DNA of 64,000 nt from Maribacter sp. (GTDB lineage Bacteria > Bacteroidota > Bacteroidia > Flavobacteriales > Flavobacteriaceae), in NCBI GenBank assembly GCA_011050675.1, contig DRFI01000023.1:124001-188000 (forward strand). The letters are read 5' to 3'. The notes beneath the pieces were generated by a model. That model made no database searches and was not told the origin of the DNA. It worked only from the letters and a program-made list of their open reading frames with translations. Numbering within the stretch: position 1 is the first letter of the stretch; every line of letters starts with the position of its first letter. Shown here piece after piece: positions 3,003-58,258 of this stretch. A program made the translations under genes and the position numbers.

Positions 3003-4151
3003 ATGGGAAAAGCAATGAAAAAAAGAGTACTATTTATAGACCGTGACGGAACTATAATTAAAGAAACAGTTGATGAACAGATAGATGCGTTTGAAAAAAT
3101 GATTTTCTATCCAAAGTCATTCACTTTTCTTGGGAAAATAGCTAAAGAACTGGATTATGAATTAGTCATGATTACCAATCAAGATGGTTTAGGTACCGAA
3201 GTTTTTCCTGAAGACACCTTTTGGCCTGTGCATAATTTTATTCTTAATTCATTTGAAAATGAAGGCGTTGTTTTTGATAAGGTATTTCTAGATCGCACTT
3301 TTCCTCATGAAAATGCAGATACAAGAAAACCAGGTACTGGGTTGTTGACAGAATATTTTTCTGATGATTATGATTTGGAAAATTCTTTTGTAATCGGTGA
3401 CCGATTAACCGATATGGAATTGGCTAAAAACTTAGGCTCTAAAGGAATTTTTATAAATGATAAAACCAATTTAGGTACTGGCGAAATTACAGTTAAACGC
3501 GACGATTTAGATAGTCATATCGCTATTGAGAGTAACGATTGGGAGAAAATCTATGAGTTTTTAAAACTTAAAGATAGAACTGCTGAAACGCACAGAAAAA
3601 CGAATGAGACCGATATTTCCATCAAATTAAATTTAGATGGTACTGGTAGGAGTGATATTAAAACCGGGTTAGCTTTCTTTGACCACATGTTAGACCAATT
3701 GGCGCGTCATGGGCAAATGGATTTAATGATAAAGGTTGATGGTGATTTAGAGGTAGATGAACACCATACTATCGAAGATACCGGTATAGCTTTAGGAGAA
3801 GTATTTCATGCTGCATTAGGTAATAAATTAGGTATCGAGCGATACGGTTTTTGTTTACCAATGGATGATTGTTTAGCACAATCTGCAATAGATTTTGGAG
3901 GCCGTAACTGGCTAGTATGGGATGCAGACTTTAAGCGTGAAATGGTAGGTGATATGCCAACTGAAATGTTTCATCATTTCTTTAAATCATTCACTGATGG
4001 CGCCAAAGCAAATCTGAACATTAAAGCAGAAGGCACCAATGAACACCACAAAATTGAAGCTATTTTTAAGGCTTTTGCCAAAAGCATAAAAATGTCTGTT
4101 AAAAGAGACGTTGAAAAAATGGTATTGCCTAGTACAAAAGGAGTTCTTTAA
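3003..4151 (+). CDS. hisB: Bifunctional histidinol-phosphatase / imidazoleglycerol-phosphate dehydratase
   Basis: A 382-residue fusion that carries out two non-adjacent steps of the pathway. Residues about 1-165 are a HAD-family histidinol phosphatase with the DxD nucleophile motif (FIDRDGT, D13 and D15) and the [10 protein letters not shown] motif. Residues about 190-382 are the dehydratase with the metal-binding motifs [28 protein letters not shown] and EHHKIEA. The start could be 3003 or the in-frame ATG at 3015; both keep the whole HAD domain. Followed by a strong hairpin before hisH. Confidence 0.96.
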
Positions 4152-4165
4152 AATAGTACCCAGCG

Positions 4166-4199
4166 GTGAGAACAAAGTAACTTATTACTTTGTTCTCAC
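4166..4199 (+). other. Intra-operon 15-bp perfect hairpin between hisB and hisH
   Basis: GTGAGAACAAAGTAA at 4166-4180 is the exact reverse complement of 4185-4199, with a 4-nt loop (CTTA). Allowing one bulged base, the stem extends outward by AGCG/CGCT to 4162-4202. No T-tract follows, so it is not a canonical intrinsic terminator. It lies between the hisB stop and the hisH ATG at 4223. A role as a transcript-stability element, processing site or partial attenuator is inference. Confidence 0.75.
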
Positions 4200-4222
4200 G
4201 CTTTGGACTTAAGTCTATTAAA

Positions 4223-4804
4223 ATGAAAATTGTAATAATAAATTACGGAGCAGGAAATATTCAAAGTATTAAGTTCGCCATTAAAAGGTTGGGTTTTGAT
4301 GCAGTTTTGACTAATGATGTTGAGGAAATTAAAAATGCCGACAAAGTTATATTCCCTGGTGTAGGGGAGGCTAGTAGCGCTATGTCAAAGTTAAGAGATA
4401 GCGGATTGGACAACCTTATTCCTAACTTAAAACAACCAGTTTTAGGTATTTGTCTAGGCATGCAGCTAATGTGTCACTCTTCTGAGGAAGGTAATACCAA
4501 AGGATTAGGAATTTTTGATGTTGATGTTATAAAATTTTCATCTAAAGTAAAGGTCCCCCAGATTGGATGGAATCAGATTACAAATTTAAAATCTACTTTG
4601 TTTAAAGGTATTGAGGAAAATGAACATATTTACTTGGTACATAGTTTCTATGCACCATTGTGTAATGAAACTATCGCAGAATGTTCATATGAAGTTGATT
4701 ACAGTGCTGCTTTACAGAAAGATAATTTTTATGGCACTCAATTTCACCCTGAAAAGAGTAGTGATGTAGGGCAGAGAATTCTAGAGAATTTTTTAAAAAT
4801 GTAA
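4223..4804 (+). CDS. hisH: Imidazole glycerol phosphate synthase, glutamine amidotransferase subunit
   Basis: Class I glutaminase subunit that feeds ammonia to HisF. Starting at the ATG at 4223 the protein has 193 residues and begins with the typical MKIVIINYGAGN. An earlier in-frame ATG at 4190 lies inside the hairpin and is rejected. The nucleophile Cys77 is in GICLGMQ, and the catalytic His175 and Glu177 are in QFHPEKS. The stop codon overlaps the next ATG by one base (TAATG), suggesting translational coupling. Confidence 0.96.
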   Translation: MKIVIINYGAGNIQSIKFAIKRLGFDAVLTNDVEEIKNADKVIFPGVGEASSAMSKLRDSGLDNLIPNLKQPVLGICLGMQLMCHSSEEGNTKGLGIFDVDVIKFSSKVKVPQIGWNQITNLKSTLFKGIEENEHIYLVHSFYAPLCNETIAECSYEVDYSAALQKDNFYGTQFHPEKSSDVGQRILENFLKM

Positions 4805-5226
4805 TGGAGCAAAATTATTTTATTTCAACTGATAAAAACCTTTTGGATGATGTTGCAATTCACCAGTTTATTGCTAACTCATATTGGGGCGATAATAGAA
4901 CACTAGAAGATGTAAAAATAACAATTGAGAACTCTTATTGTTTTGGAATATATACCCTTGAAAATGAACAAATGGGTTTTGCTAGAGTGGTTACTGATTA
5001 TATTTATTTTGGATATTTTATGGATGTGATTATCCTAGATAAATTTCAAGGTAAGGGTTATGGTAAAATTTTAATGAGAACGATGTTAGAAGATACTACC
5101 ATTAAAAAGCTTAAAACATTAGCATTAAAAACTAAAGATGCCCATTTGTTATATGAGCGTTTTGGATTTAATAGAATAGGAGATTCACCATTGTGGATGT
5201 CTGTTGATAAACAAATTTTAGATTAA
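4804..5226 (+). CDS. GNAT family N-acetyltransferase in the his operon
   Basis: A 140-residue protein with the acetyl-CoA-binding motif A of GNAT enzymes, LDKFQGKGYGKILM (Q-x-x-G-x-G), at about residues 79-92, followed by a typical C-terminal YERFGFNRIG (motif B). It belongs to the small single-domain GNATs; the substrate cannot be predicted. It starts on the last base of hisH and ends 3 nt before hisA, so it is embedded in the his operon and translated with it. A link to histidine metabolism is unproven. Confidence 0.85.
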   Translation: MEQNYFISTDKNLLDDVAIHQFIANSYWGDNRTLEDVKITIENSYCFGIYTLENEQMGFARVVTDYIYFGYFMDVIILDKFQGKGYGKILMRTMLEDTTIKKLKTLALKTKDAHLLYERFGFNRIGDSPLWMSVDKQILD

Positions 5227-10367: not shown

Positions 10368-12176
10368 CTATTTCTTATCCATATGAAGGTAATATTCTTG
10401 TAAAGTGTAAAAAGCTTTCTTTTTCATCCCTTGCTCAGAAATAAGTCCTTTTCTGTTGAAATCGTCTTGAATTCGACGTAATGGACGTCTAGATGAACGG
10501 AAATCCATCAAAATCCAAGGAGAAAGACCTGCCATGAAATCTATATTTTTCATCATTTCAATGTTAGATTTAAAAAGAGCTTCTTGGTATTCTTCTGTCC
10601 ATCTTTCATTTTTATCGCCGTGTTTACCATACAAAGCACCACCACCAATTTCACTCATGATCATAGGTTTGTTATAGGCACTAGCCCATTTAATACTGCT
10701 GCATGAATCTAAATCTCCGTAATACCATCCACAGTAATTATTAATACCAATAACATCAACAACTTTACCTAAGGGGTCTTCTATTAAATTCCCATCATCT
10801 CCTTTACCTTGGGTATCTAAAGCTGCAGTTATTAATCTAGAGTTATCTAAGCTACGTGCCTTTTCTGCCAAATTACTTATAAAAGACAAGCGAGGTTCGC
10901 TCTCTGGTGTTTCATTGGCCATTGACCATAATACCACAGATGCTCTATTTTTATCACGAGAAATCATTTCTGTTAATTGATTTTCCGCATTTGCATAGGT
11001 GTCTTCATTTTCAAACTGAATAGTCCAGTATACCGGTATTTCAGACCAAATTAAAAAGCCCATCTTTTCAGCTTCTTTTACCATAGCTTCACTATGTGGG
11101 TAATGCGCTAATCTTAAGAAATTACAACCTAATTCTTTTGCCCAATTTAAAAGCACTTTACACTCTTCAACAGAAATTATACGTCCTGTCTTAAACGCTG
11201 CTTCTTCGTGTATACTAATACCTTTAAGGAAAGTTTCTTTCCCATTTATAAGTATTTTAGAGCCATCTGTTGTTACCGTTCTAAAGCCAATATGATCAAC
11301 AACTTCATCTGTATTAGTCTTTATGATTACTTCATAAAGTTTCGGTGAAGCTGGTGACCATAAGCTAAGTTTAGCATTGATTAGAAAAGATGCTTTCCCA
11401 TCTTTTAATTTTGCTTTTACAGTTTTCTTAAGCTCAGGAATATTAATATTGACTTCATCTCCGTCAACGCCATTTTCTACAGCTACCCATCCTTTTATTT
11501 TACCGGTTTCTCCTTTTTCTAATTGAACATAGTAATCAGATATATGAGTTTTAGGTACCTTTATCAAGTGTACAGATCTAGTGATGCCACCATAGTTCCA
11601 CCAATCTTGGTTTACGGTAGGTACATTTTCTTTTTTACGTTTGTTATCAACTTTTACGACAACAAAGTTATTTCCATCAACAAGTTTATCGGTTACATCG
11701 AACTGAAAAGGAGTGTAGCCACCAACATGTTTGCCTATTTTTTCTCCATTTAAGTAAACAATAGCCTCATAATTTACCGCTTCGAAATATAGATAAGCTA
11801 ATTCGTTGGTAGCAGGCGTATAGTCGAAGTCCTTTTTATACCAGACAGTGCCTTCATAATAATAAAGCTTATCCATTTGTGTATTCCAATCACCTGGTAC
11901 ATCTAATTGTAAACTGGTATCGAAATCATACTCAATTAGGTCGGAAGGAGATTGCATTTTTGCATTCTTAAAATACCCTTTATCATATTCCTGTAATCTA
12001 TGGTTGTAAAATCCATTTTCTAGGGGATCTACAATCATATCCCATTTCCCATTTAACGAAGTCTTTTCTCTGGAATCTATGTTCTGAAGAAGATTGGCAT
12101 AATTGGCATCTTGTGCAATACTGTTTATGCTTAAAAAAATAAAGAGAATGAACGTTAAATTACTTATTCCTTTCAT
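10368..12176 (-). CDS. Exported glycoside hydrolase family 2 (beta-glucuronidase/galactosidase-like)
   Basis: A 602-residue enzyme with a signal peptide (cleavage after about residue 21). It shows the three GH2 parts: a jelly-roll sugar-binding domain (about 40-210, with VPGDWNTQ and YLNGEKIGKHVGGYTPF), an immunoglobulin-like domain (about 210-300) and a TIM barrel (about 300-600). The acid/base Glu is in VVLWSMANETPES and the nucleophile Glu in PMIMSEIGGGALYG; FLRLAHYPHSE is the usual barrel motif. Likely acts in the periplasm or on the surface on beta-linked uronic acid or galactose; the exact substrate is open. It is monocistronic. Confidence 0.9.
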   Translation of the reverse strand: MKGISNLTFILFIFLSINSIAQDANYANLLQNIDSREKTSLNGKWDMIVDPLENGFYNHRLQEYDKGYFKNAKMQSPSDLIEYDFDTSLQLDVPGDWNTQMDKLYYYEGTVWYKKDFDYTPATNELAYLYFEAVNYEAIVYLNGEKIGKHVGGYTPFQFDVTDKLVDGNNFVVVKVDNKRKKENVPTVNQDWWNYGGITRSVHLIKVPKTHISDYYVQLEKGETGKIKGWVAVENGVDGDEVNINIPELKKTVKAKLKDGKASFLINAKLSLWSPASPKLYEVIIKTNTDEVVDHIGFRTVTTDGSKILINGKETFLKGISIHEEAAFKTGRIISVEECKVLLNWAKELGCNFLRLAHYPHSEAMVKEAEKMGFLIWSEIPVYWTIQFENEDTYANAENQLTEMISRDKNRASVVLWSMANETPESEPRLSFISNLAEKARSLDNSRLITAALDTQGKGDDGNLIEDPLGKVVDVIGINNYCGWYYGDLDSCSSIKWASAYNKPMIMSEIGGGALYGKHGDKNERWTEEYQEALFKSNIEMMKNIDFMAGLSPWILMDFRSSRRPLRRIQDDFNRKGLISEQGMKKKAFYTLQEYYLHMDKK

Positions 12177-51684: not shown

Positions 51685-53196
51685 TTGAAATTACAGAAAG
51701 AGACCGTTGAGAAAACCTTATATGATTATCAAGAGGAAGATCTACATGCTATTTTTAAGTATCTAGAGGAGAATGGAGATAATTCTAACTTATTATACCA
51801 ATTGCCTACCGGTGGTGGTAAAACAGTGGTATTCTCTGAAATTGCCAAGCGTTATATCGCAAAGACCAATAAGAAGGTTATTGTACTTACCCACCGTATA
51901 GAACTAAGTCAGCAGACTTCTAAAATGCTAAATGGTTTTGGGGTTAAGAACAAGATTATAAACAGCGAAGTAAAAGAATGGCAAGACCAAGACGAGTTCA
52001 TGTGTTTTGTAGCCATGGTAGAAACGCTGAACAACCGACTACAAGAAGAGAAGATTGAAATTAATAATATAGGCCTTGTCATTATCGATGAGGCGCATTA
52101 TAACTCTTTTCGTAAGCTATTTAAGTTTTTTGAAAACTCCGTTATTCTTGGGGTTACCGCAACACCGTTAAGTTCAAATATTAAGCTTCCCATGAAAGAC
52201 AACTATAAAAAGTTGATTGTGGGCGAGTCTATAGATTCTTTGATCCAAAAGAAGTTTTTGGCTAAGGCGAACATGTATAATTACGATGTAAGTCTACAAA
52301 CCCTTAAACTGGGAATTAGTGGAGATTATACCGTAAAATCATCCGATGAATTATACGGTAACCATAGTATGCTGAACAAGCTGGTCGCTGCCTATAATGA
52401 AGTAGGAAAAGGAACCAAGACGCTGATATTTAATAACGGAATAAACACCTCTAGGTACGTATGTGAAACGTTTAAGAAGGCTGGCTACAATATTCGCCAT
52501 CTAGACAATAAGAACAATGCAGGGGAACGTAAAGAGATCTTAAAATGGTTTAAAGAAACGCCCGACGCTATATTAACATCGGTAAGTATTTTAACTACTG
52601 GTTTTGATGAGCCTAGTGTAGAAACCATTATTCTAAACCGTGCTACACGCTCGCTTACCTTATATTTTCAAATGATCGGTCGTGGGTCTAGATACTTACC
52701 ACACAAAGAGGAATTCAATGTTATTGATATGGGGAACAATGTTGCCCGTTTTGGTCTGTGGAATGCAGGTATCGATTGGCAAGAGATTTTCCATTTTCCA
52801 GATTTCTATTTGGAAAACATAAAGAATGATGAGGAGATAGAACGTGAATTCGTATATGAAATGCCGGCAGATTTACGAGCTGAGTTTGCGAATTCTACCG
52901 ATATCGATTTTGATATTAAAGCGGAATATAAAAAGAGCTTTGCAAACGGAGAGAAATCTAAACTGGTACTTGAAAAAAGTATTGACCAGCACGCAAAAAT
53001 TTGTGTAGAGAATTCCGAAGATGTGTTTGATGCCCGTATTCTAGCCAAAAAACTAAAAGAGGAAATTAAATACCGTGTCCGTCAATATTCCTATTGTATT
53101 ATGAATAATACAAAGAACTACAAAGAATGGTTAGAAGAGGATTATGAGCGAAAATTACGTTCTAAAATATCCAAGATGTTCGCTGCAAAAATGTAA
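51685..53196 (+). CDS. DEAH-box superfamily 2 helicase (TTG start)
   Basis: A 503-residue helicase. The start must be the TTG at 51685: an in-frame TAA at 51670 precedes it, no ATG lies between, and LYDYQEEDLHAIF (Q-like motif) directly follows. Motif I is QLPTGGGKT (about 39-47), motif II IIDEAHYNSF, motif III GVTATPLSS, motif VI QMIGRGSRYLP. The C-terminal 120 residues are charged and unrecognised. Similar to SSL2/UvrB-like repair helicases. Stand-alone gene. Confidence 0.88.
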   Translation: MKLQKETVEKTLYDYQEEDLHAIFKYLEENGDNSNLLYQLPTGGGKTVVFSEIAKRYIAKTNKKVIVLTHRIELSQQTSKMLNGFGVKNKIINSEVKEWQDQDEFMCFVAMVETLNNRLQEEKIEINNIGLVIIDEAHYNSFRKLFKFFENSVILGVTATPLSSNIKLPMKDNYKKLIVGESIDSLIQKKFLAKANMYNYDVSLQTLKLGISGDYTVKSSDELYGNHSMLNKLVAAYNEVGKGTKTLIFNNGINTSRYVCETFKKAGYNIRHLDNKNNAGERKEILKWFKETPDAILTSVSILTTGFDEPSVETIILNRATRSLTLYFQMIGRGSRYLPHKEEFNVIDMGNNVARFGLWNAGIDWQEIFHFPDFYLENIKNDEEIEREFVYEMPADLRAEFANSTDIDFDIKAEYKKSFANGEKSKLVLEKSIDQHAKICVENSEDVFDARILAKKLKEEIKYRVRQYSYCIMNNTKNYKEWLEEDYERKLRSKISKMFAAKM

Positions 53197-53233
53197 TTCT
53201 TAAGGTGATGAGTTTTTGGTTTTTAGAATACTA

Positions 53234-53292
53234 CCCTGAGTCCATTCGAAAGGACTGGAACTCAAAAATCTTCATCAATCCTCAGGGTGACA
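53234..53292. repeat. CCCTGAG...CTCAGGG inverted-repeat element
   Basis: CCCTGAG (53234-53240) and CTCAGGG (53281-53287) flank a 40-nt core that contains a nested AGTCC/GGACT hairpin (53239-53256). The outer sequence resembles the CCTGAG/GGGTGACAG repeats common in Flavobacteriia intergenic regions. GC-richer than the surroundings. Its copies elsewhere were not searched. Confidence 0.55.
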
Positions 53293-53340
53293 GCAGTACT
53301 GAAAACTGTCAACTGATACAGCGAACCGTAAACTAAATAC

Positions 53341-53371
53341 TTGCTATCCGTCCAACGATTCATTTACTTTG
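53341..53371 (+). promoter_or_regulatory. Likely promoter of the GT4 gene
   Basis: TTG (53341-53343), 20 nt, then TTACTTTG (53364-53371), one mismatch from the TAnnTTTG consensus. The expected start site is near 53378, upstream of the open N-terminal coding region that lacks a standard start codon. A 10-bp direct repeat CTAATTCCTA (53381-53390 and 53395-53404) follows. Confidence 0.45.
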
Positions 53372-53397
53372 CACTTACATCTAATTCCTAACACCTA

Positions 53398-54639
53398 ATT
53401 CCTATCAAAACCCAAACCCTTCTCGTAATTGCACTTGTATGGCCAGAACCTGCTTCCACGGCTGCGGGAGTTCGAATGATGCAATTATTAGAAGTATTTA
53501 AAAAGCAAGGCTATTCCATAACTATTACTTCTGCCGCGTCTAAGTCGGAGTATTCTGCAGATGTTGAACTTTTAGGATACAACTCTCAGGATATAAAAAT
53601 GAACGATGCTTCGTTTGATGTTTTTGTAAAAGATTTGAATCCTGATGTGGTGTTATTTGATCGATTTTTGACCGAAGAACAATTCGGGTGGCGTGTGGCT
53701 GAAAACTGCCCAAATGCATTACGAATTTTAGATACCGAAGATTTACACAGCCTACGTCATGTGCGGGAACAGTGTTTTAAAAAGGATGTTCCGTTTACTA
53801 CAGATTCATGGTTGGCAGATGATAAGACCAAACGAGAAATTGCGAGTATTTACCGTTGTGATCTTTCTTTAATTATCTCTAGCTACGAATTAGAATTATT
53901 GACCGATGTTATTAAAATAGATGAAAGTCTACTTTTGTTACTTCCTTTTATGGTCGATGAAATTACCAATGAAACCAAATGGAATTCTTTTAATGAGCGT
54001 ACCGATTTCATATTCATAGGTGGTGGAAAACATGCGCCAAATATAGATGCGGTTAAATGCTTGAAAACTACTATTTGGCCATTAGTTCATAAACAATTGC
54101 CCGAAGCCAAATTACATGTGTATGGTGCTTACTTGCCACAGCAAATTTTAGAAATGCATAACCCTGCAACTGGTTTTCTAGTACACGGCAGGGCAGTAGC
54201 TGTTGATGATGTTATGAGTACCGCTAAAGTATGCTTGGCTCCTTTACGTTTTGGTGCCGGCATTAAAGGGAAATTGATTTCTGCCATGCAAAATGGTACA
54301 CCTAGTGTTACCACAACTATTGGTGCAGAAGGCATGGCCGGCATTTTGGACTGGAACGGTTATATAGAAAATGATCACACCGCTTTTGTTGCTGCAGCGG
54401 TACGATTATATACTGTGAAAGACACCTGGCAGCAATCACAAAACCAAGGAAAAACTTTGATCAATACGCTGTACGCTAAAACAAGTTTAGAACGTGTATT
54501 TTTAGAGAAAGTTACACAACTTCAAAAAGACCTGACCCATCATAGAACACAAAACTTCACCGGAGCTTTATTACAGCACCAAACAATGACAGCTACTAAG
54601 TTTATGAGTAAATGGATTGAGGAGAAGAATAGGGGGTAA
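53398..54639 (+). CDS. Glycosyltransferase family 4-like protein, non-ATG start
   Basis: A family-4-type (GT-B) glycosyltransferase. The first ATG (53476) would remove conserved N-terminal sequence: in frame just upstream is KTQTLLVIALVWPEPASTAAG, a typical GT4 opening. The frame is open only back to a TAA at 53389, and no ATG/GTG/TTG occurs, so ATT at 53398 (413 residues) or ATC at 53404 must be used unless the start codon was lost. Later motifs are FIFIGGGKHAPNIDA (donor-domain start), LAPLRFGAGIKGKLISAMQNGTPSVTT and TIGAEGMAG (the nucleotide-sugar site). Substrate unknown. Confidence 0.78.
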   Translation: MPIKTQTLLVIALVWPEPASTAAGVRMMQLLEVFKKQGYSITITSAASKSEYSADVELLGYNSQDIKMNDASFDVFVKDLNPDVVLFDRFLTEEQFGWRVAENCPNALRILDTEDLHSLRHVREQCFKKDVPFTTDSWLADDKTKREIASIYRCDLSLIISSYELELLTDVIKIDESLLLLLPFMVDEITNETKWNSFNERTDFIFIGGGKHAPNIDAVKCLKTTIWPLVHKQLPEAKLHVYGAYLPQQILEMHNPATGFLVHGRAVAVDDVMSTAKVCLAPLRFGAGIKGKLISAMQNGTPSVTTTIGAEGMAGILDWNGYIENDHTAFVAAAVRLYTVKDTWQQSQNQGKTLINTLYAKTSLERVFLEKVTQLQKDLTHHRTQNFTGALLQHQTMTATKFMSKWIEEKNRG

Positions 54640-54663
54640 GCTAAAGGGTTTCGTTATCGTTTA

Positions 54664-54837
54664 GTATAAGAAACGTAGGGCAGGTGATAAGCACTTTAGT
54701 TTCGATTTATTACTTAGCTAAATATAAATATTTTGTTTTTATCTTTTGTTCCATAAACGCTGAATTTTATATTTAGCGGACTTTATAATAAACACTGACC
54801 TTTCGGTTAAATCACACACGCCCTATGTTTTTTATAC
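54664..54837. repeat. 174-bp folded repeat with inner hairpin, after the ATPase-DUF4435 gene
   Basis: GTATAAGAAACGTAGGGC (54664-54681) and GCCCTATGTTTTTTATAC (54820-54837) are 16/18 complementary, the two mismatches being G-T. An inner CGCTGAAT/ATTTAGCG stem (54758-54765, 54771-54778) lies within. The layout (terminal arms plus internal hairpin near a GTTGTGCG end) recalls a recombination site or structured RNA. It lies just outside the gene's 3' end motif. I recall similar GGGCG...CGCCCTATG elements in Flavobacteriia but did not check. Confidence 0.65.
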
Positions 54838-54840
54838 ACT

Positions 54841-56487
54841 GTTGTGCGTAGTTATTTTATATCAAATTTGTCAGTTTAATCAATAATGTTCGATAAAAGG
54901 ATTTAATATTTGGGTCATCAATAATTAATTTTCTTACTGCACTTTCATATGTGTCTGTATTGAGTTCTAACCCTCCAACAATTCCATTAATAACGGGTGT
55001 TTCTCTTATTGGATACCTAGAAATAAGTCCATTTATATTTTGGCTTTGAATAAGGTCATTAAAAATTGTTTCCTCTTTTTCAAATTCCTCATTTAAGTCC
55101 ATATTCAAGACAAACTGTTCTTTGTTTAATATGTTTTGATGTCTTGGAAGATTTGACATTACTGAGTTTCTAACTTTTTTCTCACAAAGTCGTGAGCAAA
55201 GTCTATCTTTATGTAAAGTGATATTCTCTATAATTTTCGAAGTTGAATTTGTATATAATTCATCTTTACTCTTACCTGAGATATCCGCAAATCTTTCCGC
55301 AATTTTTTCTATTATTTCTGTTCTGTAATAAAGAGATTCAACTGAATAAGATTCAAGAGCAACAACTCCTTTATCTATAAGTGTTTGTAGCTGTTCAGCT
55401 GTACGGTCATCAGCGTCTATTAAACCGAAAACACTTATCCAATGTAATTTATCTGTTCCTCTCACACCTTCAACTGCTCTTTCCACATCTTTACAACTAC
55501 CTTTCGGAATAACACTTAATTCTGGGAAAATTAGCTGATAAATTTGTTTGTCTAAGCTGGTTGATTCTCCTTCCACAAATAGTATTTTCCTTTTTGCGCC
55601 TAAAATTGACTGTTTAATTTCATTTGGTATTTCATCTGTTTCGGTGATTAAATCAGCTTCCCAGTCTTTTATGTTTTTGTTGTTCCAAGTACAGTCTCTA
55701 ATTAATAGAACACTAGATTCATTATGGTCTATTGGTAAAAATATATCGTGCGTAGAGATAACAAATACACAATCTTTCCTTTTATTAAATAATGAAGTTA
55801 GTAAAGGGGAAATGATAGACCTATGTAAATGTCTTTCGGGCTCATCTAAAATTATTAATTGATTTGGTTCTGTTGTTAGAATATCTGAACATATTAATAA
55901 AGCATTTCTTTCTCCGTCTGATAATTCTGCTATACTGTATAACTCACTACCATTTTTTGAAGCAAAAAGCTGTTCATCTTTTTCAAGAGATATAACAATA
56001 GGAATATTTGATAAAGCTAATAATTCATTAATCCCTTGAATAGGTGCTTGTTTATTTGATAGTTCTTTTGCTAAGTCAATATTATCTTGGTCGACTTCGT
56101 TAGCGATTTTTCTAGCTCTTATATTTTCCGAATTGATTAAATCAAAAATTGATAAAGATGCTCTCATTGATGAAGAATTGTCTTTCCATCGTGAATCAAT
56201 TAACGAATCCCAGTATTTGATGTTAGAATCGTTTTCTTTCTTTTGAGAAGCTGTAATATTCATTGCATTATCAGTAAACCAAGTTTGCCTATGAGCTAAA
56301 ATTCTCTTTGCGTGATTTTGATTTTGAGTAAATAGATTGTGCATAAGAGTTGATTTTCCAACTCCATTTGCTCCTAAAACGAAAAGTGCATTTCCTTCTG
56401 TAAGGTTAATGTCTAAAACTCCATTATTTGAAGTTTGAAAGCTAAATTTATATTTTGATTCTATCATTTTTTTTAATTACGCACAAC
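54841..56487. mobile_element. Cassette-like unit bounded by 10-bp inverted repeats (ATPase-DUF4435)
   Basis: GTTGTGCGTA (54841-54850) and its perfect reverse complement TACGCACAAC (56478-56487) sit 6 nt and 10 nt outside the single ORF they bracket. The same GTTGTGC core brackets the DUF6090 pseudogene. No transposase or integrase is present. The unit ends next to a large folded repeat at 54664-54837. Confidence 0.55.
54857..56467 (-). CDS. ABC-type ATPase fused to DUF4435 (TOPRIM-like); PARIS/OLD-like defence protein
   Basis: A 536-residue protein. Residues 1-250 form an ABC/OLD-type ATPase head with Walker A GANGVGKST (32-40), signature LSDGE (182-186), Walker B LIILDEPERH (204-213) and the H-loop STHD (238-241). 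Residues about 290-440 form a DUF4435/TOPRIM-like domain with the acidic residues of FVEGE (Glu299) and IDADDR (Asp351, Asp353). This domain order matches fused AriA-AriB (PARIS) and resembles OLD nucleases, both phage-defence ATPases. The ATPase head is shorter than in classical AriA. It stands alone in a cassette-like unit. Confidence 0.75.
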   Translation of the reverse strand: MIESKYKFSFQTSNNGVLDINLTEGNALFVLGANGVGKSTLMHNLFTQNQNHAKRILAHRQTWFTDNAMNITASQKKENDSNIKYWDSLIDSRWKDNSSSMRASLSIFDLINSENIRARKIANEVDQDNIDLAKELSNKQAPIQGINELLALSNIPIVISLEKDEQLFASKNGSELYSIAELSDGERNALLICSDILTTEPNQLIILDEPERHLHRSIISPLLTSLFNKRKDCVFVISTHDIFLPIDHNESSVLLIRDCTWNNKNIKDWEADLITETDEIPNEIKQSILGAKRKILFVEGESTSLDKQIYQLIFPELSVIPKGSCKDVERAVEGVRGTDKLHWISVFGLIDADDRTAEQLQTLIDKGVVALESYSVESLYYRTEIIEKIAERFADISGKSKDELYTNSTSKIIENITLHKDRLCSRLCEKKVRNSVMSNLPRHQNILNKEQFVLNMDLNEEFEKEETIFNDLIQSQNINGLISRYPIRETPVINGIVGGLELNTDTYESAVRKLIIDDPNIKSFYRTLLIKLTNLI

Positions 56488-56611
56488 GTTGAGCTAAGAG
56501 AAGTTTCAATTCCTTTTAGCGGATGATAACGAAGTTCGCTTTTTGTAAAATTGTACGCAAACACTTACAATCAGAGTTGTAAGAAGTTATTAACGAATGA
56601 GTTAATACTAA
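56488..56611. other. Structured intergenic flank upstream of the ATPase unit
   Basis: About 124 bp without an ORF. It contains a CTTACAA/TTGTAAG 7-bp hairpin (56564-56570, 56577-56583) and GCTAA...TTAGC (from 56492). It directly abuts the TACGCACAAC end of the ATPase unit and may be the 3' structured repeat of a lost or neighbouring unit. Confidence 0.4.
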
Positions 56612-57625
56612 TTAGACAGTTTTCTGTACTTTCCAGTCGTTTTTTAAATACGCAAGCGCATCTTCCAAAGCCTTTTTAGAAGGTTTAGGGTTAAAGCCTA
56701 ATTCTTCTCTAGACTTACGAATATCATAGTCTTGTTTTAAACCATAAAACATATCTAAGTAATGTCGTTGCAACAAGGGTTCTTTACCGGTTAGCTTACT
56801 GCTAAACTCCATTAACCCAGCTACACCATACAAAAGCCATTTGGGTACTTTTTTTGGCATTTTTAACATTAATTCTGGGTATAGATCTGCTGCGATTTTT
56901 ACACTCTCTTGTAAGGTAGTATGTGTTTCGTTCGCTAAAATATAGCGCTCGCCATCCCTGCCTTTTGTCATGGCATTGAACATGCCTAAAGCAACATCTT
57001 TTACATCGACCCAATTTAAGGTAACACTAGTATCTACAGGTATTTCCCCATTTAATACTTGTAGTACCAAATTGTTAGAATAACTGAGTTTAAACGCTAT
57101 AGCACCAACCATTGCAGATGGTAAAACCAGTACCGTTCTAATACCATATTTTTTACCTAATGCTATGGCTAGTTTATCTGAATCATTCTTAGAATTGAAA
57201 TACCAGTTTCTTCGATCTTTATTATAGCCATTAGCTACATTGGCGGGTAGCTTGGTGTAATCTAAACTAGCTACAGAACTAACGTATACCATATTTTGTA
57301 CGCCACATTCTTTAGCGACATCAAAAACGTTTTGGGTTCCTTGTAGGTTGTTATCATAAATTTCAGTTTTAGGGTCTTTCGCCCACATACTAAAATTTGC
57401 CGCTACTGCGTATACATTGGTGACCCCTTTAAATGCCTTTTTTAAGGAGGCTTTATCAGTTATATCTGCCTGTACAATCTCACAGTCCAACCCTTTAAAA
57501 GGTGCTGTATTATTTAGGTTTCTAACGGTTGTTCTAACCTTTTGATTATTGGCAAGTAATAATCGTATTAAGTTGTTTCCTAAATGTCCCGTACCACCTG
57601 TTACTAATGAAATCTCGTTGCTCAT
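56612..57625 (-). CDS. NAD(P)-dependent SDR family protein (extended, 3-beta-HSD/DFR-like)
   Basis: A 337-residue extended short-chain dehydrogenase. The nucleotide-binding motif VTGGTGHLGNNLIRLLL (G-x-x-G-x-x-G) starts at about residue 8. VYVSSVASLD precedes the active-site region, and the Y-x-x-x-K pair appears in WYFNSKNDSDKLA (shifted variant). PSAMVGA and NWVDVKDVALGMFNA follow, resembling dihydroflavonol/3-beta-HSD-type enzymes. It probably acts on a small ketone, alcohol or sugar. It lies 63 nt downstream of the Crp/Fnr gene, which may control it. Confidence 0.9.
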   Translation of the reverse strand: MSNEISLVTGGTGHLGNNLIRLLLANNQKVRTTVRNLNNTAPFKGLDCEIVQADITDKASLKKAFKGVTNVYAVAANFSMWAKDPKTEIYDNNLQGTQNVFDVAKECGVQNMVYVSSVASLDYTKLPANVANGYNKDRRNWYFNSKNDSDKLAIALGKKYGIRTVLVLPSAMVGAIAFKLSYSNNLVLQVLNGEIPVDTSVTLNWVDVKDVALGMFNAMTKGRDGERYILANETHTTLQESVKIAADLYPELMLKMPKKVPKWLLYGVAGLMEFSSKLTGKEPLLQRHYLDMFYGLKQDYDIRKSREELGFNPKPSKKALEDALAYLKNDWKVQKTV

Positions 57626-57688
57626 ACTATTTTTGAATTTTGCTTACGCAAATTTCCGTGACTTTTAATTGGTAAGAAATAACATTTG

Positions 57689-58258
57689 TTAGAAAGCGAT
57701 TTGTTTTCTAATACGACTTAGCGATTGCGGTTCCATACCTAAAAATGAAGCGATATTATCTATAGATACATTTAAAGCCAATGTTGGGTACTGATGTACA
57801 AATTTTAGATACCGCTCTTTTGCAGTTAAAATCTGAAAGTCTTTAACACGTTCTAGTTTACAATTTAAGTGCTCATTGGTGACTTCTTTCACAAATATTG
57901 CCCAGAAATTGGTTTCCTTTTGTAATAGATCAAAGTCCGGCTTTGCTATTTTAACAAGACTGGCAGCGGTAACAGTTTCGTAATAATCCATTGACGGAGT
58001 GCCCGTCATAAAACTCTCTAGTGATGTGAAGAAATCTTGCTCCGCCACGAGATGCTGAACTACTATTTTTCCGTCAATATTCTGATATCCCTTAACAATA
58101 CCGGTATCTAAGAAATAAATATACCGTTCTACTTTTCCTGCCTCTAAGAGAATGGTTTGCGCAGGAACTTCTTCCGACACGAAATACTTCTTGAGTAGAT
58201 CAATATCATTTTGCGATATGGTAGCTCTTGACTGTATGTAGTTGATTAGATTTTCCAT
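57689..58258 (-). CDS. Crp/Fnr family transcriptional regulator
   Basis: A 189-residue regulator: cNMP-binding jelly roll (about 20-110, with ILLEAGKVERYIYFLDTGIVKGY) followed by a dimer helix and a C-terminal HTH at about 150-185 (SIDNIASFLGMEPQSLSRIRKQ). No cysteine cluster, so not a classical Fnr oxygen sensor. The family in Bacteroidetes often controls nearby enzymes. Immediately upstream of the SDR gene, in the same direction. Confidence 0.9.
   Translation of the reverse strand: MENLINYIQSRATISQNDIDLLKKYFVSEEVPAQTILLEAGKVERYIYFLDTGIVKGYQNIDGKIVVQHLVAEQDFFTSLESFMTGTPSMDYYETVTAASLVKIAKPDFDLLQKETNFWAIFVKEVTNEHLNCKLERVKDFQILTAKERYLKFVHQYPTLALNVSIDNIASFLGMEPQSLSRIRKQIAF

Follow-up and report, generated by a model that had tools for sequence, protein, structure and literature searches.

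The stretch analysed here (the window) comprises 64,000 nucleotides from Maribacter sp. (Bacteroidota; assembly GCA_011050675.1, contig DRFI01000023.1, positions 124,001 to 188,000). One of its minus-strand genes encodes a 536-residue protein in which an ABC ATPase is joined to a DUF4435/Toprim domain, and the gene lies between two short, mutually complementary sites. Taken as a whole, this unit is probably a fused effector-sensor of the PARIS defence system carried as one integron-like cassette. Each half of that reading stands more firmly by itself: the protein is very probably of PARIS type (single-gene AriAB), and we hold with high confidence that its gene is carried as an integron-like cassette. 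Rousset et al. (PMC9122126, used here, like the other papers cited by PMC number, in its available sections) named ariA and ariB, found the system in 5.2% of genomes, either as a pair of genes or fused into one, and constructed an AAA_21+DUF4435 profile of the fused form. The merged version was thus already described, as a preliminary description of this DNA had noted, and the novelty is its packaging in a cassette. The features concerned are the following.

54857..56467, minus strand: ariAB-type fusion gene, 536 residues, with an ABC ATPase at about 1-285 and a DUF4435/Toprim part at about 288-536.
56475..56487, minus strand: core site before the gene, GTTGTGCGTAATT, 7 nt from the ATG.
54841..54853, minus strand: inverse core site after the gene, AACTACGCACAAC, complementary to the core site except for one A.C mismatch.
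54659..54853, minus strand: attC-like element, made of the inverse core site and then an L-type stem, GTATAAAAAACATAGGGC / GCCCTACGTTTCTTATAC, round a long loop, the stem being judged against shuffles; its limit at 54659 follows the frame common to relatives and does not mark the core site of a next cassette.
54659..56486, minus strand: putative whole cassette, bounded by AAC|GATAACG next to the glycosyltransferase and by G|TTGTGC at the other end, as suggested by the frame shared with relatives G003 and G026.

The open reading frame starts with ATG and holds no internal stop, and the motifs that the preliminary description had read in it all lie where it placed them: Walker A GANGVGKST (residues 32-40), LSDGE (182-186), ILDEPERH (206-213) and STHD (238-241), followed by VEGE (298-301, with Glu299) and IDADDR (350-355, with Asp351 and Asp353). 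Two Pfam families exceed their cut-offs, AAA_21 at residues 76-246 (E 6.3e-11) and DUF4435 at residues 295-492 (E 9.6e-12), the latter being the sole DUF4435 match detected across the organism's own genome. In PADLOC, the AriAB profile PDLC02982 covers residues 1-533 (E 1.8e-63, 213 bits) and is followed by AriA (E 5.7e-14) and a longer AriAB model (E 2.1e-12). ATPase motifs, catalytic glutamate with DxD, and full-length profile together place the protein in fused PARIS. A scan of GTDB contigs returned 40 loci of the fusion family, and K38, S183, E209, H240, E299, G300, D351, D353 and E377 are invariant in all 39 full-length proteins, namely the window's own and those of 38 loci, two loci with broken or short reading frames (L041, L055) having been excluded beforehand. 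These two are decayed copies, one split in Cryomorpha into several reading frames (294 residues and others) and one left in Colwellia as a 176-residue piece. The full-length AriAB match, together with a search of the 40 loci for a neighbour conserved beside ariAB, in which the largest common cluster comprised 3 loci, bears out the earlier view that the protein has no separate partner. A sigma-70 promoter scan gave a background level of sites (12, with a mean of 9.8 in shuffles), and an Rfam scan of positions 53000-58000 returned zero matches up to E 1.

The limits 54841-56487, between which the preliminary description had seen a self-contained unit, are exactly the outer edges of a 13-nt inverted pair and lie beyond the open reading frame. 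The ends follow one rule, GTT-N7-A-NN before the gene and NN-C-N7'-AAC after it, which yields ten base pairs, one A.C mismatch and two further pairs; the few hits of the pair search at 11/13 are chance-like, and no second GTT-N7-A-NN pair occurs within the 64-kb window. One search with a fixed-sequence motif found no copy in relatives sharing the insertion slot, and the rule emerged once N7 was left free. Similarity at the DNA level between the window and Flavobacterium sp. ACAM 123 spans 54823-56489 only, ending just outside the inverted pair. The same kind of pair bounds ariAB in five related loci (L017, L020, L021, L024 and L026, at least 12/14 positions, matched by at most 1 of 100 shuffles), with weaker ends in L025 (10/14; 13 of 100 shuffles). 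The L stem, which was not used for detection, scores 15.0 in the window, where the shuffle mean is 6.0 and none of 200 shuffles is equal or better; over all sites its mean is 11.3 vs 5.7 in shuffles, and in 21 of 23 sites at most 5 of 200 shuffles are as good. In this test the GATAACG junction replaced the next core for three sites, those of the window, L099 and L103.

Cassettes with such ends also form arrays beside tyrosine recombinases. On contig C30 of the same genome, six cassettes accompany, on the same strand, a 376-residue recombinase with relatives at E <= 1e-50 in 28 of the 36 genus genomes (own included). Eleven regions reaching downstream of 11 of the 43 recombinase matches listed, from eight genomes and 199,500 bp in total, contain 54 pairs, between 1 and 10 in each, and every one of the 54 lies on the strand of the recombinase. 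The controls, nine regions of seven of these genomes with 180,000 bp in total, contain 0 pairs. The ariAB gene of Flavobacterium sp. ACAM 123 is the fourth detected cassette from a recombinase on the same 19-kb contig, where the recombinase reads as 235 residues without its N-terminal part and two of the four cassettes hold opposite-strand reading frames only. In Lutibacter the recombinase and the ariAB array lie on one contig, the closest cassette detected being about 4.7 kb from the enzyme's gene, and eight spacers between successive cassettes measure 116-121 nt, the other two of ten being longer, with no pair detected. In Rufibacter it directly precedes two cassettes, on a different contig from ariAB.

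With 224.5 bits, the C30 recombinase exceeds the cut-off of 220 for NF040815, "site-specific tyrosine recombinase/integron integrase"; with 203 bits, it stays below the cut-off of 265 for TIGR02249, of which it covers model positions 7-180 and 241-314 only. The best recombinase matches skip positions ~181-240 of TIGR02249; the hallmark of IntI is an additional domain (PMC9668308), to which this skipped stretch would correspond. In three recombinases the match starts 109-212 residues in. An ordinary integron remnant, that is, a cluster of attC sites lacking an integron integrase (CALIN) whose IntI was lost or missed, would share the attC-like architecture, the AAC/GTT triplets and the R and L stems; canonical GTTGGGC or GTTAGGC cores appear at some related loci, and Bacteroidota are at least named, if merely named, among integron-bearing phyla (PMC8618304, PMC9668308). 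We nevertheless regard this origin as unlikely, for no TIGR02249 match over the cut-off was found in the own genome or in any of the 8 host genomes of related loci, the recombinase matches skip the segment that is IntI's own, and N7 is mostly not RRRY. A C30-type recombinase, on balance, is the enzyme we favour for moving the ariAB cassette.

Several observations accompany these arrays. Two further cassettes lie at the end of the window's contig (G000:C23:142-1397, L173) and may belong to a second array that is truncated there; the same contig encodes at 3719-5038 a 439-residue tyrosine recombinase of a different type. A small gene with a similar paired-cysteine start, as judged by eye, is found upstream of the array recombinase both in the own genome (L160:7584-7982) and in Rufibacter (L169:14667-15044); the former has no NCBIfam match. 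Of the 47 proteins that cassettes carry besides ariAB, one matches bSEFIR (E 3.6e-73); 12 models of defence proteins each hit a single cassette protein, and at least 35 of the 47 match none.

Comparison of predicted structures bears on the nature of the protein itself. A class 1 OLD or Gabija-like DNA nuclease, in which a fused ATPase and Toprim domain would cut phage DNA and not tRNA, has an identical domain order; among fold matches to the C-terminal model, OLD C-terminal regions take ranks 3-6 and GajA ranks 7 and 9-12, and PADLOC gives a weak GajA match (E 7.7e-7). We find this explanation quite improbable, however, as AriB chains of PARIS rank first with longer alignments (207-209 vs 126-159 residues), the full-length AriAB profile is far ahead, and DUF4435 is the family of the PARIS effector (PMC9122126). 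Of the earlier designation "PARIS/OLD-like", the PARIS part is the better supported in both profile and fold, and the OLD likeness is the weaker one. The C-terminal half folds as a Toprim/AriB domain, and the reduced ATPase head noted earlier is evident from the superposition of model residues 4-262 on residues 3-444 of the AriA chain (about 285 residues vs a chain of 464). Some of the structural results tell against assignment to PARIS. Foldseek alone returned 0 matches to the C-terminal model at E <= 0.001; the AriB match came from a second aligner only, with rmsd 6.4-6.9; a C-terminal sequence profile retrieved zero AriB chains from the PDB; and a profile search of the PDB with the whole family ranked generic ABC proteins above AriA. 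Sequence searches of the PDB with two AriB proteins of two-gene systems as queries likewise yielded zero AriB chains, so that E. coli AriB residue numbers are unmappable here. The E. coli AriB nicks tRNA-Lys and is inactive as an E26A mutant (PMC12409363); by its motif, Glu299 may be the counterpart of that E26, and the motifs EG, DxD and YS(I/V)E are common to the fusion and to the two-gene AriB of L133 and L135.

The frequency of paired ends was measured by scanning all loci with the end rule, blind to reading frames. This yielded 67 pairs in 1,355,352 bp and 1 in one shuffled copy, the 67 including double counts (L026 overlaps L164/L165, and L017 overlaps L167) and chance-like single pairs in L025, L168 and L170. 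Limited to pairs up to 3.5 kb, there were 51 in 310,050 bp of other Bacteroidota (10 counted twice), 9 in 971,934 bp of the own genome (about a fifth of it), 4 in 461,799 bp of slot relatives and 0 in 392,139 bp of non-Bacteroidota. Of the nine in the own genome, six form a row next to the recombinase, two adjoin each other where a contig ends, and the remaining one is ariAB. Of 48 pairs listed, 41 enclose same-strand reading frames that fill 0.7 or more of the cassette, and the other 7 include at least one cross-pair between neighbours.

Transposon or miniature inverted-repeat transposable element (MITE) terminal repeats, or an RNA hairpin or terminator, might also place short inverted ends round a single gene: the slot has been used more than once, sequences able to form hairpins occur at gene 3' ends, and lone pairs occur by chance. 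Yet the variation of N7 between cassettes means that they have no shared terminal repeat, and the eight Lutibacter spacers, the single orientation of pairs near recombinases and the 41 pairs that enclose same-strand reading frames make such an origin very improbable.

Against the cassette interpretation it must be weighed that the window's cassette is solitary and that lone pairs arise by chance: the largest other class in the own set counts 22 pairs where the target class has 9, that in slot relatives 24 where the target has 4, and all other classes summed give 1621 and 644 pairs, respectively. In other Bacteroidota the largest other class, also 51, consists of the same repeats read from the opposite strand. 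Pair counts alone thus do not single out the rule in the own set and the slot relatives; clustering does. At the ends of ariAB, 7 of 12 other Bacteroidota loci and all 28 non-Bacteroidota loci fall below 12/14 (L041 and L055 being tested at fragment ends), so that members of the ariAB family do not always travel with ends of this kind. In L103 the L stem does no better than chance, with 191 of 200 shuffles as good, and in one L024 site it is weak, with 10 of 200; single-strand DNA folding of 15 sites reached z <= -3 in only 3, and a recombinase relative at E <= 1e-50 is absent from G003, which bears a slot cassette, and from G004. A lone pair is not proof in itself; its position at both ends of the reading frame, the ends found in relatives and the L stem carry the case.

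The cassette occupies a variable slot beside a glycosyltransferase gene, delimited by three features.

53476..54639, plus strand: glycosyltransferase gene, the conserved left border of the slot, present in 35 of 36 genus genomes (own included, E <= 1e-40) and syntenic.
56488..56533, minus strand: host-side half of the insertion frame, TTCGTTATCATCCGCTAAAAGGAATTGAAACTTCTCTTAGCTCAAC, common to relatives with other genes here.
54650..54658, plus strand: other half of the frame, TTCGTTATC, adjoining the glycosyltransferase 3' end.

Directly upstream of the glycosyltransferase lies a RadD-like helicase in 31 of the 33 relatives fetched, and a gene of ~730-750 residues stands between the two in 22 of the 33; in the window (53197-53475) that gene is absent. 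Considered as a partner of ariAB, the helicase (51685-53196) was rejected as a core gene, since it adjoins the glycosyltransferase in those 31 relatives and none of them has ariAB. After the glycosyltransferase, the genes vary. The family scan of this slot covered the first 13 loci by a tally of 49 proteins, and 19 different proteins singly, only two of which came from the other 20 loci. The cargo includes a complete Wadjet JetABCD (G022) and, two genes off the glycosyltransferase, a CBASS set of cyclase, E1-E2 and SAVED genes (G018). G008 carries a C5 methyltransferase together with an EcoO109I-type nuclease, G028 a C5 methyltransferase, and G004 a GmrSD-type gene. No defence gene was recognised in other slots, such as that of G001, with a FUSC-family gene, and that of G015, with an FMN oxidoreductase. 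The closest relative by flanking proteins (G004, 95-96% identical) has other genes within a glycosyltransferase-epimerase interval of 4.3 kb. Strict GTT-N7-A-NN pairs occur in the slot of 4 of the 33 relatives (G003, G015, G016 and G026).

The insertion frame was compared in the window, G003 and G026. Before the cassette, all three read TTCGTTATCATCCGCTAAAA(G/A)G/AGAATT...TTAGCTC(A/C)AC, and after it GATAACGAAAC; inside this same frame the genes differ (536, 280 and 174 residues), as do the inner pairs. A shared frame with differing genes is the trace that cassette insertion at one secondary site would leave. Beyond what the preliminary description proposed, the unit has the form of an integron-like cassette, and its slot is occupied by other defence genes in relatives. 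Between the cargo genes of G004 and G026, the final ~200 bases of the glycosyltransferase gene recur as additional copies (L095:6830-7048; L103:8836-9059 and 10571-10943), which look as if the site and gene tail had been duplicated together with a cassette.

The gene is accessory and does not hold a fixed housekeeping position: a full-length relative is found in 0 of the 35 other genomes of the genus, and the own genome alone matches at E <= 1e-60 among 395 genomes sampled from the phylum. Of 60 relatives, 13 match the fusion at E <= 0.001, the own genome included, and the matches elsewhere are partial, mostly to the ATPase, at E 4.2e-5 or weaker. A wider protein search gave 2714 proteins at E <= 0.001 among 8000 scored candidates, and the 40 loci span Bacteroidota, Proteobacteria, Cyanobacteria, Chloroflexota, Acidobacteria, Planctomycetes, Verrucomicrobia, Myxococcota and one Clostridium. 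Relatives occur in 51 plasmid records (coverage is 80% or more in 42 of them; among the 20 plasmids listed, 16 come from E. coli or Salmonella and measure 5.3-6.5 kb), in 2 phage records, which are the same phage with a partial match, and in 4 IMG/VR contigs. That the function is read from sequence and that the 120 matches listed, among them the window's own protein, share 63-100% identity across 95% or more of the query could suit a housekeeping or otherwise non-defence ATPase-nuclease, but the patchy occurrence, the plasmid-borne relatives and the Wadjet, CBASS and restriction genes in the slot of some relatives make that scarcely credible. One small, mobilizable E. coli plasmid (NZ_CP030330.1, L213, 6395 bp) carries a fused ATPase-DUF4435 gene, 32% identical, together with a ToxN/AbiQ toxin gene, and Salmonella plasmids of similar size also bear a fused ATPase-DUF4435 gene. 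In the cyanobacterium Brasilonema (L033), canonical-looking GTTAGGC / GCCTAAC sites were noticed by eye around ariAB.

Judged by family membership alone, the protein probably defends by abortive tRNA cleavage. In two-gene PARIS an AriA hexamer holds three AriB, triggers bind AriA, and the system is sometimes one polypeptide (PMC12409363). By analogy, we infer that the N-terminal ABC ATPase would form a ring or dimer that restrains the Toprim domain; once a phage-encoded trigger, for instance an Ocr-type anti-restriction protein, had bound the ATPase, the Toprim domains would pair and nick a host tRNA, and the growth of the infected cell would stop. With ATPase and Toprim on one chain, release of free AriB would be impossible, so activation would differ from that of two-gene PARIS and may consist of movement or in-place pairing of the tethered Toprim domains. 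In a circular form of the cassette, the core and inverse core sites would anneal into the R box of an attC-like hairpin enclosing the L stem, and the likely enzyme would be the Xer/integron-like tyrosine recombinase that heads cassette arrays in the genus. The ariAB cassette may have left or bypassed such an array and entered a secondary site at the glycosyltransferase 3' end.

More broadly, we lean towards a cassette-capture system of Bacteroidota that parallels integrons: Xer/integron-like recombinases without the IntI segment would stand at the head of unidirectional arrays, whose cassettes mostly hold single genes, would recognise the shape of the cassette ends (an L stem, a fixed A.C mismatch and 10 base pairs free to vary in sequence) and would spread one-gene PARIS, also into a secondary chromosomal slot in which other defence systems occur. 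If so, a large gene-capture system has been overlooked in Bacteroidota, because its arrays were found by a simple complementarity rule beside a recombinase with relatives in most genomes of the genus, and one-gene, partner-free PARIS would have a route of travel in this phylum. It may be speculated that the fusion is a convenient form since it fits one cassette. A question of mechanism is raised as well, namely how a tethered AriB is switched on, given that AriB is held by AriA and then freed in two-gene PARIS. According to the available text on IntegronFinder 2.0 (PMC9024848), a complete integron in Bacteroidetes proper was found only in Salinibacter ruber, earlier findings being integrases without sites. 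By title and abstract start, none of the integron and cassette papers listed describes arrays of the present kind in Bacteroidota, in a survey that covered subscription journals poorly and may have passed over an earlier account. Defence genes in integron cassettes are reportedly the subject of two 2025 Science papers.

The canonical integron core site is GTTRRRY. Integrons and sedentary chromosomal integrons resemble the present arrays in their mostly single-gene cassettes of one orientation, in a recombinase heading the array and in attC-like R and L stems with AAC/GTT. They differ in that the recombinase here is without the IntI-specific segment and its gene points along the array direction, that the window core is GTTGTGC, and that N7 varies widely among cassettes, being largely free and pairing as 10 bp plus a fixed A.C mismatch. 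An array beside the recombinase, moreover, holds for the six C30 cassettes and the ariAB of Flavobacterium sp. ACAM 123, not for that of the window. The "integron-like" tyrosine recombinase subgroup of PMC8138268 is similar in comprising IntI relatives with an incompletely conserved IntI insertion, although the available sections of that paper draw no link to Bacteroidota cassette arrays. Class 1 OLD and GajA of Gabija share the order of ATPase and then Toprim in one chain, but with lower fold scores and shorter alignments to the C-terminal model. The two-gene PARIS of E. coli (PDB 8ux9, 8v46; PMC12409363) has an AriA-like ATPase core and an AriB-like C-terminal fold in common with the window protein, which is distinguished by its single chain, with an AriB that is not releasable, and by its shorter ATPase. 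Closest in kind is the fused PARIS ariAB (PMC9122126, PDLC02982), which agrees in domain order, length, full-length profile match and accessory position, whereas the integron-like cassette in Bacteroidota, of which the available sections of PMC9122126 make no mention, sets the present gene apart.
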